Shown: positions 1,102-3,963 of the stretch, piece by piece
Layout: the number at the start of each line of letters is the position of its first letter
Position numbering within the stretch: position 1 is the stretch's first letter
Assembly: GCF_030186535.1 (NCBI RefSeq)
Contig: NZ_JASNVW010000004.1
Span: 1 to 64,000, forward strand
Length of the DNA: 64,000 nt
DNA from: Ignisphaera cupida
Lineage (GTDB): Archaea > Thermoproteota > Thermoprotei_A > Sulfolobales > Ignisphaeraceae
Direction: 5' to 3'
Notes under the pieces: generated by a model
The model's database searches: none
What the model saw: the letters and a program-made list of their open reading frames with translations, nothing else
Told to the model about the DNA's origin: nothing
Made by a program: the position numbers and the translations under genes

Positions 1102-1383
1102 ATAGCAAAACTAGTTTTTCTTGGTCATTTGAAAAATGTTGCTAATGTTTCATCAATAGAAATCAAGCTTAGCGAAAAAACTAATTTGAAAGAGTTTTTC
1201 CAAATAATCCTGGATAGATATCCTCAGCTAAAAAATTTATTAAGTGAAACCTCTCTTCATGAAGGAGAGTTTCTCATTCTAATCAATGGAATTGATATAA
1301 GAGTTTTTAACGATCCCTACAACGAGATTATTGTTGAGGATTCTGATGAAATTGTTTTTGTACCTGTAACACATGGAGGATAG
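1102..1383 (+). CDS. MoaD/ThiS-family ubiquitin-like sulfur carrier
   Basis: Beta-grasp sulfur carrier, likely for molybdopterin/tungstopterin synthesis or tRNA thiolation, activated by an E1-like enzyme (a candidate is at 52670-53413). The C-terminus is a free Gly-Gly (VPVTHGG), as needed for adenylation. From ATA 1102 the first strand reads AKLVFLGHLKNVA, which matches the conserved MoaD N-terminus. The first conventional codon, TTG 1129, would delete that strand. A stop at 1099 excludes any start further upstream. The length from ATA is 93 residues. The gene overlaps the Cgi121 gene by 11 bases, so the two are probably co-translated. The fold assignment is firm; the exact partner enzyme is unknown. 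Confidence 0.8.
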   Translation: MAKLVFLGHLKNVANVSSIEIKLSEKTNLKEFFQIILDRYPQLKNLLSETSLHEGEFLILINGIDIRVFNDPYNEIIVEDSDEIVFVPVTHGG

Positions 1384-1930
1384 GTGCATATCTGGCTTGT
1401 ATTTTGCATTCATACATTTGAATTCCTGTGAAAGCTTATGCAATGTATTAAGTGAATTGCATGGTCATGAGGAATTTAAATGCATTACAACGAAATATTG
1501 TTCCTTGCCTTTGCAAAGCCTTATCATAGCCTTTGAAAAGTCTTTGAGTGCATTTAAAAATAAAGAAAATATTGCGAAAAAACAGGATCTAGAATTACTT
1601 ATTAGATTATTTGGAATGAGACAAATAAAAAAACTGTTAAAGTTGATAAATGAAGAAATTTGTGTAAGCCAGAACTATTATGTGACGTTACTTTATATAA
1701 ATAACTCATTGAAAGACGAAGAAATTGTAGATATAGGAAATATGTTGGTACGTAAAGCAAAAGAGCTTAAATGCAAAGTTGTTAGCATTGAAGATCTTGC
1801 TGTCGATAAAAATACTATTTCAAATAAATGCTATGCAGTGACAAAAACTTTATTTATTAATTGGAGTAATTACTGTAATGAACAGGTATTGATAGGAATT
1901 AGTGGCACTTCTGAAGTTCTTATTTTATAA
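1373..1930 (+). CDS. KEOPS complex subunit Cgi121-like
   Basis: Probable Cgi121/TPRKB subunit of KEOPS, the complex that makes the t6A37 modification of tRNA. It has 185 residues. The motif LLIRLFGMRQIKKLLKLI corresponds to the conserved Cgi121 segment containing the RQI signature (about residues 74-91). The C-terminal half is a predicted alpha/beta region. It overlaps the upstream MoaD-like gene, and ABCE1 lies downstream. Similarity outside the RQI region is modest by eye, so the family call rests mainly on that motif and the length. Confidence 0.7.
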   Translation: MEDRCISGLYFAFIHLNSCESLCNVLSELHGHEEFKCITTKYCSLPLQSLIIAFEKSLSAFKNKENIAKKQDLELLIRLFGMRQIKKLLKLINEEICVSQNYYVTLLYINNSLKDEEIVDIGNMLVRKAKELKCKVVSIEDLAVDKNTISNKCYAVTKTLFINWSNYCNEQVLIGISGTSEVLIL

Positions 1931-1958
1931 AATAATATGCACTTGTTTAGAGAAATGC

Positions 1959-1996
1959 TTTTATTTACTCACTTGTTGTAGGATTGTTATGAGGTG
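1959..1996 (+). promoter_or_regulatory. Box A-like element and ribosome binding site of the Glu/Trp microprotein
   Basis: TTTTATTT at 1959-1966 resembles box A. A start about 25 bases downstream would fall near 1988, leaving a leader with GAGGTG at 1991-1996, eight bases before ATG 2005. The combination suggests that the microprotein has its own expression signals. Confidence 0.4.
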
Positions 1997-2004
1997 TTTG
2001 TAGA

Positions 2005-2082
2005 ATGATATTTGAAGAAGAGTGGGAAGAAGAGGAAGAGTGGTGGGAAGAAGAAGAGGAATGGGAAGAAGAGGAGTGGTAG
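2005..2082 (+). CDS. 25-residue Glu/Trp microprotein
   Basis: Tiny gene not recognised from any family. After Met-Ile-Phe every residue is Glu or Trp: 17 Glu and 5 Trp in 25 residues, with Trp at positions 7, 13, 14, 20 and 25, so tryptophans recur every five to seven residues. Codons alternate GAA and GAG, so this is not a simple nucleotide repeat. A strong ribosome binding site (GAGGTG, spacing 8) and a box A-like element precede it. It lies between the Cgi121 and ABCE1 genes. A strongly acidic peptide that binds a basic surface is possible, but that is speculation; a leader peptide is the alternative. Confidence 0.65.
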   Translation: MIFEEEWEEEEEWWEEEEEWEEEEW

Positions 2083-2154: not shown

Positions 2155-3963
2155 ATGGGTAGAATTGCTACAATAGATTATGAATTATGTCAACCTAACA
2201 AATGTGGCATTCCCTGTATACGTTTTTGTCCCATTAACAAAACAAGACCTTATAAAGCAATAGAGCTTAGTTCAGAAAAACAAGGAAAGCCTGTAATATA
2301 TGAGGATAAGTGTATTGCTTGTGGAATATGTGTTAAGAAGTGTCCATTTAAAGCTATACACATAATCAATATACCAACTGAAATGGAGGAAAAAATTGTT
2401 CATAGATATGGGGTAAACGCTTTTAGTTTATATGGATTGCCAATACCCGTGGAAAATGAAGTTGTAGGTATATTAGGACCTAATGGAGCTGGAAAAACAA
2501 CGGCTATGAGAATTCTTTCAGGGTTCTTAATACCAAATTTTGGAATTTTAGATAAAGAGCCTTCGAAAGAATATGTGCTTGAAAAGTTTAGAGGTACGCA
2601 ACTCTATGATTACTTTAACAAGTTGTACAGTGGAAAAATTAAGGTTGTGTATAAGATTCAGTATATAGAAGCAATTCAAGCATATGTAAAGCAGGGAATT
2701 GTTTACGATTTGCTGAAGAAGTTTGATGAGAGAGGAATATTGAAGGAGGTTATAGATTATCTTAATCTTGGAAACATGTTGTCAAAAAATGTGAAAACAC
2801 TTAGTGGAGGTGAGTTGCAGAAACTTGCTATTGCAATAGCTTTAGAGCGTGATGCAAATACTTATATTTTCGATGAGCCAACAGCTTTTCTAGATGTGAG
2901 AGAACGAATTAATTTAATGAAAGCCTTAACTGAGCTAAGGCCAAGAAATTGCTACATTTTTATAGTAGATCACGATATCATGTTTCTAGACTATGTAGCT
3001 GATCTTATAGTAATAACATATGGTGTTCCATCAGTTTTTGGATATTTCTCAAAAACATATTCAGCAAAAGCTGGTATAGACTATTATTTAAAGGGTTTTC
3101 TGCCTGTAGAGAACATGAGAATTAGAGAAGAGCAAATAACATTCAAACTACATGATACTAGAGACGATGTTATAGCAATTGGTGAAGGTGATGTAATTTT
3201 TTGGAGCCAGCTATTCAAGAAATTGGGAGATTTTGAGCTCTTAGTTGAAGAAGGTAAGGTTAAGAAAGGAGAGGTTATCGGGATTATAGGCCCTAATGCA
3301 ACAGGTAAAACAACTTTTATTAGAATTTTAGCAGGTGAAATAGAACCAGATAAGGGATATGTTACATCACCTAGTTTAAAGATAAGCTATAAACCACAAT
3401 ATCTAAGTAGAGATAGTGTTAATTGTACAATTGTTAAAGAATGTTTAAAAGATGTGAATAAGGCTGCTCTTGAGGAGAGTAACTGGCTTTACATTGAGGT
3501 AATTAAAAGACTTGGTGTAGACAGAATACTTGAAAAAGAAATTGAGAAGTTGAGTGGTGGAGAGTTACAAAAATTTTTCGTGGCTAAAACACTAATTAAA
3601 GAAGCAGATGTTTACTTGTTAGATGAGCCATCTTCGCACATAGATGTTGAAGATCAGCTATCTGTTGCAAGAGCTATAAAAAGAATTGCTAGAATGAGGA
3701 AAACCCCTGTGTTTGTTATTGATCATAACATTCTTCTAATAGATTATGCTGTTGATAGATTAATGGTGTTTAGAGGAGAGCCTGGTGTTAAGGGTTTTGG
3801 CATGTCACCAACAGTTGTTTCAAGAGCTTTTAACAACTTCTTAAAAGAAGTTGACATAACTGTTAGAAGAGATCCAGAAACAGGAAGACCTAGAATAAAT
3901 AAACCTGGTAGCTATCTGGATAGAGAACAGAAAACAAGTGGTCAATACTTTTACACAATTTAG
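2155..3963 (+). CDS. ABCE1 / RNase L inhibitor homologue, ribosome recycling ATPase
   Basis: Cytosolic twin-ATPase that splits ribosomes after termination and works with initiation factors. It has 602 residues, normal for the family. The N-terminal ferredoxin-like domain has the two 4Fe-4S cysteine sets (CGIPCIRFCP and CIACGICVKKCP, residues ~17-65). ABC1 has Walker A GPNGAGKTT near residue 107, signature LSGGE and Walker B YIFDEPTAFLD. ABC2 has Walker A GPNATGKTT, LSGGE and YLLDEPSSHID. The start ATG follows an AGGTGGG site at suitable spacing. ABCE1 is nearly universal in archaea and eukaryotes. Confidence 0.98.
   Translation: MGRIATIDYELCQPNKCGIPCIRFCPINKTRPYKAIELSSEKQGKPVIYEDKCIACGICVKKCPFKAIHIINIPTEMEEKIVHRYGVNAFSLYGLPIPVENEVVGILGPNGAGKTTAMRILSGFLIPNFGILDKEPSKEYVLEKFRGTQLYDYFNKLYSGKIKVVYKIQYIEAIQAYVKQGIVYDLLKKFDERGILKEVIDYLNLGNMLSKNVKTLSGGELQKLAIAIALERDANTYIFDEPTAFLDVRERINLMKALTELRPRNCYIFIVDHDIMFLDYVADLIVITYGVPSVFGYFSKTYSAKAGIDYYLKGFLPVENMRIREEQITFKLHDTRDDVIAIGEGDVIFWSQLFKKLGDFELLVEEGKVKKGEVIGIIGPNATGKTTFIRILAGEIEPDKGYVTSPSLKISYKPQYLSRDSVNCTIVKECLKDVNKAALEESNWLYIEVIKRLGVDRILEKEIEKLSGGELQKFFVAKTLIKEADVYLLDEPSSHIDVEDQLSVARAIKRIARMRKTPVFVIDHNILLIDYAVDRLMVFRGEPGVKGFGMSPTVVSRAFNNFLKEVDITVRRDPETGRPRINKPGSYLDREQKTSGQYFYTI

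Follow-up and report, generated by a model that had tools for sequence, protein, structure and literature searches.

ABCE1 is the universal ribosome splitter of archaea and eukaryotes. DSS1/Sem1 is a small, disordered and very acidic eukaryotic protein, with spaced Trp and Phe residues. The C-terminal tail of the archaeal stalk protein aP1 is reported to bind ABCE1, aEF1A, aEF2 and aIF5B (PMC6791870, PMC11624264), and consists of an acidic stretch followed by a hydrophobic or aromatic end. In the N-terminal acidic (NTA) motif of eIF3j/HCR1, a conserved Trp inserts into a hydrophobic pocket of the eIF3b RRM (PMC2824034); yeast HCR1 is an interacting partner of ABCE1/RLI1, and deletion of HCR1 is rescued by extra ABCE1 (PMC3836723). 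The acidic tail of LysW ends in EDWGE (PMC10433800), and early acidic residues destabilize or pause ribosomes in bacteria, as in leaders of the MgtL type, which act by intrinsic ribosome destabilization (PMC11282234).

The window analyzed here, a 64,000-nucleotide stretch of the Ignisphaera cupida genome, encodes a 25-residue protein made almost entirely of Glu and Trp (hereafter the E/W microprotein), directly upstream of ABCE1. It shares with the aP1 tail an acidic stretch and an aromatic end, but aP1 has a further domain at its N-terminus and a conserved tail of the LSALFG type, whereas the E/W microprotein is free-standing, two-letter, and repeats its Trp. Membership of the aP1 family (PF00428) is ruled out, as the protein has 25 residues and no Pfam match, and a canonical aP1, ending in ...SEEQLAEGLSALFG, is encoded separately in the same genome. 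The eIF3j/HCR1 motif is matched in having Trp embedded in an acidic segment; however, eIF3j/HCR1 is eukaryotic, much larger, and possesses domains beyond the NTA, while the E/W ORF stops after 25 codons and matches no family. Homology between the two is not demonstrable from a two-letter sequence, and for the ABCE1 binding expected of an eIF3j/HCR1 protein the counterpart here is gene linkage, and a weak AlphaFold2 test that did not dock the peptide. LysW and ArgW are likewise small, acidic and archaeal, with Trp within an acidic tail, but have a zinc ribbon and a C-terminal Glu; the E/W microprotein lacks Cys, has no PF21344 or NF041070 match and ends in EEEEW, which rules out membership. DSS1/Sem1 differs in being eukaryotic and longer, and in including other residues. 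Finally, MgtL-type leaders resemble it as short upstream ORFs with early acidic residues, but in many cases the E/W gene does not lie upstream in cis, and its Trp residues are kept everywhere.

The E/W gene in Ignisphaera cupida and its relatives

The E/W microprotein gene (MIFEEEWEEEEEWWEEEEEWEEEEW and a TAG stop codon) spans positions 2005–2082 of the forward strand. Its translation is exactly as claimed by the sequence-only reading from which this analysis started: MIF followed by 22 Glu or Trp residues, with Trp at positions 7, 13, 14, 20 and 25, and then a stop. The ribosome binding site it proposed, GAGGTG with a spacing of 8, was located at 1991–1996 (forward strand), 8 nt 5′ of the ATG, as a Shine-Dalgarno (SD) element. 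Its box A-like element was likewise found, as an archaeal-type BRE/TATA-like element (TAGAGAAAT-GCTTTTATTTAC, 1948–1968, forward strand) about 45 nt 5′ of the ORF, and is kept at a similar position in close relatives. Both elements are read from the sequence. Elsewhere in the window, mixed E/W runs reach at most 3 residues, against 22 in the ORF; 40 simulated versions of the window (order-3 Markov) gave longest runs of 3–4.

The gene lies between KEOPS and ABCE1 genes, also as first described. Upstream is a Cgi121-like KEOPS subunit (1373–1930, forward strand; NCBIfam NF011465, E = 2.2e-6, under the curated cut-off), and downstream is the ribosome recycling ATPase ABCE1 (2155–3963, forward strand; Pfam Fer4_RLI, Fer4 and two ABC_tran domains; PDB 6tmf_d, E = 2e-203). 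Biosynthetic genes are absent around it. Further upstream, between the S17e-like and Cgi121-like genes, positions 1129–1383 encode an 84-residue Urm1/ThiS-like beta-grasp ORF (PF09138, E = 6.5e-5, above the cut-off), possibly a small archaeal modifier-like protein adjoining KEOPS. The E/W stop is followed by 23 open codons in the frame of ABCE1 (2080–2155), leaving one readthrough and one stop codon between the two proteins; this shared frame is probably due to chance, as the two frames agree at less than half of the related loci compared.

ABCE1 was used as an anchor to reach the equivalent locus in related genomes. A Glu/Trp ORF is present 64–221 nt 5′ of ABCE1 in all 16 Ignisphaera-family loci examined, with E-run lengths that vary by whole Glu/Trp codons. 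The sequence-only reading had pointed to a missing frame or internal stops in relatives as the sign of a spurious ORF; the frame is intact in them. It had also remarked that mixed GAA and GAG codons are not a simple repeat, and had proposed comparing synonymous and non-synonymous changes. Across 13 genomes, picked for their common 13-residue stretch WWEEEEEWEEEEW (the remaining three of the 16 are set apart by a single Glu close to the end), Glu codons vary freely: all four TGG codons are invariant, all nine Glu columns swap GAA and GAG, and not one residue changes. When five close relatives are aligned, the BRE/TATA element, SD, ATG, ORF and stop are kept, while the DNA on both sides is not. 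Of 41 related loci, the majority have a TATA-like box together with a G-rich SD between −8 and −14. Free GAA/GAG variation with constant residues, between intergenic flanks that do not align, implies that the ORF evolves as a protein. It is thus almost certainly a real protein-coding gene that carries promoter-like and SD elements of its own, and I infer that it is translated. The initial proposal, which was of a Glu/Trp microprotein not described before and equipped for its own translation, came without a mechanism and is supported at the level of sequence. Within positions 2047–2073 and their equivalents, 12 of the 13 genomes use GAA for the Glu directly after WW and for the Glu that follows the next Trp, although later Glu codons are mixed; a context effect on codon choice is possible.

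Distribution and genomic context

Of 229 genomes from the class, 39 contain a strict core pattern, WW-E5-W-E3, and 99 a looser W/E codon pattern, which matches 114 of 398 sampled genomes of the phylum; the reversed controls gave no match. An Asp-permissive pattern matched 112 of 299 near-complete genomes (control, 2/299), and the W/E codon pattern matched none of 249 genomes of a bacterial phylum. When 84,980 GTDB species were scanned for WW-(D/E)5-W, microproteins came from Thermoproteota only, namely Ignisphaera, Zestosphaera, a Staphylothermus sp. and many Desulfurococcales and Sulfolobales MAGs; no microprotein with this WW-specific pattern was found in other archaeal phyla, and each bacterial match lies within an unrelated ORF of at least 100 residues.

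The products of pattern matches are mostly ORFs of 25–60 residues, with ∼92% Glu and Trp. In 113 distinct blocks the composition is 75.5% Glu, 16.5% Trp, 3.8% Asp and 1.7% Phe, with no Lys, Arg or His, partly by construction since the blocks were chosen for acidic and aromatic content. Their aromatic residues are usually spaced by 4–6 or paired; 90 blocks end in EEW or EEF, and 96 in Trp or Phe. Sulfolobaceae-like genomes (family f11; the f-, G- and L-labels used here are arbitrary codes for families, genomes and loci) carry an Asp- and Phe-containing version, for example MEEDWEDIEEEDWEDIEEEDWEEDEW, immediately 5′ of ABCE1. One genome possesses two separate E/W loci (L216 and G313:C1:326190-326269). 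In two further cases the E/W block forms the C-terminal tail of another protein: a LysW-like zinc ribbon at L245:6041-6316 (reverse strand; PF21344, E = 3.3e-6; NF041070, E = 2e-9, under the cut-off), and a small Cys-rich zinc-finger ORF at L226:5920-6150 (reverse strand). These fusions could hint at partners.

Searches of Pfam, NCBIfam and the PDB with the E/W microprotein returned no profile, sequence or structure match, which bears out the initial impression that no family like it is described, and no earlier description was found in open-licence papers. I conclude, from sequence comparison, that these ORFs form a real and undescribed microprotein family, Thermoproteota-wide. Since a two-letter sequence alone proves no homology, the inferred common descent of the deep-branching E/W genes as one family rests on their make-up, size and position beside ABCE1.

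That position, noted initially at a single locus, recurs across many families. In five families of the order, coordinates place the E/W gene upstream of ABCE1 and no more than 1.5 kb away, in 16/16 (f1), 19/19 (f2), 9/10 (f7), 16/20 (f9) and 2/2 (f11) genomes, the last of these families also having it upstream in most genomes inspected. The ORF is co-directional and 60–460 nt 5′ of ABCE1 in f1, f2, f7 and f11; of the 16 linked f9 genomes, 12 encode it divergently and four co-directionally, and in f3, f4, f5 and f8 it is unlinked. For deeper families, ABCE1 lies within ∼6 kb of the E/W gene, always downstream and co-directional, in 22 of 44 fetched loci, against a random expectation of ∼0.8%. 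Cgi121, a phosphoribosyltransferase, a THUMP protein and an RPB9-like zinc ribbon are also recurrent neighbors, but ABCE1 is directly linked in more lineages than any other gene. Linkage of such breadth, in genomes whose gene order is otherwise shuffled, argues for a functional tie between the E/W gene and ABCE1. In eight genomes of f18, a family with zero pattern matches, and at six of eight f25 loci, no E/W gene was found at a distance of up to 1.5 kb from ABCE1, so that ABCE1 does not in general depend on it.

Two other arrangements were observed. At ten loci (L198, L217, L219, L224, L225, L228, L236, L237, L240, L241) a zinc-ribbon ORF of ∼95 residues directly follows the E/W gene, ahead of ABCE1; its representative L217_8 matches the RPB9-type PF02150 (E = 9e-5, under the cut-off). 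At four deep-branching loci unlinked to ABCE1 (L202, L212, L238, L239), the E/W gene is flanked by the same two opposite-strand genes, by eye AbrB/PhoU-like and HTH-like, a second conserved context.

A candidate ligand in ribosome recycling

The best overall explanation, to which I give slightly less than an even chance, is a trans-acting acidic-aromatic microprotein that would serve in ribosome recycling with ABCE1. Several other readings have to be weighed against it. The strand encoding the ORF is almost all purine, except for the T of TGG, as might be expected of a purine-rich DNA or RNA element, or of a low-complexity expansion, in which the ORF arose by chance. However, changes are confined to the third position of Glu codons, with codon positions 1 and 2 and each TGG fixed, lengths change by whole codons, and start, SD, TATA and stop are kept; in f11 and in deeper families Glu gives way to Asp and Trp to Phe, so that the purine pattern is broken and the chemistry retained. 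The purine-tract and chance-ORF readings are rejected on the codon pattern and the simulations, and that the ORF is no gene is scarcely credible. It could instead be a leader peptide in cis, whose acidic run destabilizes or pauses ribosomes, so that the upstream ORF would respond to the stability of ribosomes, or to the capacity to recycle them, and set ABCE1 expression accordingly, in the manner of MgtL-type leaders. This would make an elegant autoregulatory loop on a ribosome-splitting factor; it draws on the bacterial effect of early acidic residues cited above, and on the co-directional upstream position in f1, f2, f7, f11 and the 22 deeper loci. Destabilization alone, however, needs neither spaced Trp nor an aromatic C-terminus, there are promoter elements directly 5′ of the ORF, and the pattern is kept where the gene is divergent, as in most linked f9 genomes, or elsewhere, as in f3, f4, f5, f8 and many deeper families. 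A cis leader is insufficient given such genes in several lineages, and as a general explanation the pure leader-peptide reading is rejected, because copies are not always upstream or co-directional; I consider it improbable.

A different possibility is that the peptide has no specific relation to ABCE1, and is an acidic-aromatic hub or chaperone comparable to DSS1/Sem1, for example by mimicking nucleic acid or by chaperoning some basic protein of ribosomes or chromatin, in which case the linkage would reflect only an old translation neighborhood. Extreme acidity without any basic residue in the blocks, the recurrence of Cgi121, THUMP and RPB9-like zinc-ribbon genes as neighbors, and the lack of ABCE1 linkage in about half of the deeper families are all consistent with it, but ABCE1 has the E/W gene directly upstream in more lineages than does any other neighbor, and I regard this reading as rather unlikely, less so than the leader. 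A LysW/ArgW-like aminoacyl carrier, or a peptide scaffold for C-terminal amino-acid addition, is brought to mind by the LysW tail and by the L245 fusion. The window ORF nevertheless has no zinc ribbon, and almost none of its relatives does; Trp or Phe and not the Glu used by LysX/ArgX ends most blocks, and the window locus has no biosynthetic neighbors, making this very improbable.

For the recycling ligand, the separate parts of the proposal deserve different degrees of trust. The E/W product very likely acts in trans, as a peptide; that it acts in translation together with ABCE1 is about an even bet; and that it binds ABCE1 itself, through its Trp residues, is a tentative suggestion. Mechanistically, the spaced Trp and the usual C-terminal -EEW would sit in one or several hydrophobic grooves rimmed by basic residues, on ABCE1 or on a ribosomal subunit or factor bound by it. 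With many Trp units and an aromatic C-terminus, the peptide could be a multivalent ligand for a groove of the type that receives the aP1 tail or eIF3j. Its most likely effect would be to tune the recruitment or release of ABCE1, competing with or replacing aP1- or eIF3j-like tails. It counts against the proposal that the gene is unlinked to ABCE1 in several families, and that nearby translation genes, namely Cgi121, THUMP and the zinc ribbon, could encode the true partners instead.

AlphaFold2 was applied to a microprotein-linker-ABCE1 fusion, made by translating past the E/W stop, across the in-frame gap and on into ABCE1, with an alignment of 50 sequences. The E/W part has a pLDDT of ∼27 and does not dock, in a monomer model of a low-complexity segment for which only the confidence is visible; direct binding to ABCE1 thus stays a guess. 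A 30-residue relative modeled alone forms a single confident helix, which is expected for any Glu-rich peptide and is therefore uninformative.

The E/W gene would be unusually small for a conserved gene and its sequence unusually simple, with essentially two amino acids whose make-up, and usually a C-terminal aromatic residue, are kept over a phylum; its size makes it easily missed by annotation. It provides a clean natural model of acidic-aromatic binding peptides, and its tie to ABCE1 a direct way to ask if recycling cofactors like eukaryotic eIF3j exist in archaea. More speculatively, and rather doubtfully, it may be an ancient and so far overlooked translation factor of Thermoproteota, a free two-letter peptide that would place multivalent Trp on ABCE1 or the ABCE1-bound 30S subunit to control splitting or the hand-over to initiation, as a functional counterpart of the eIF3j acidic-Trp motif.
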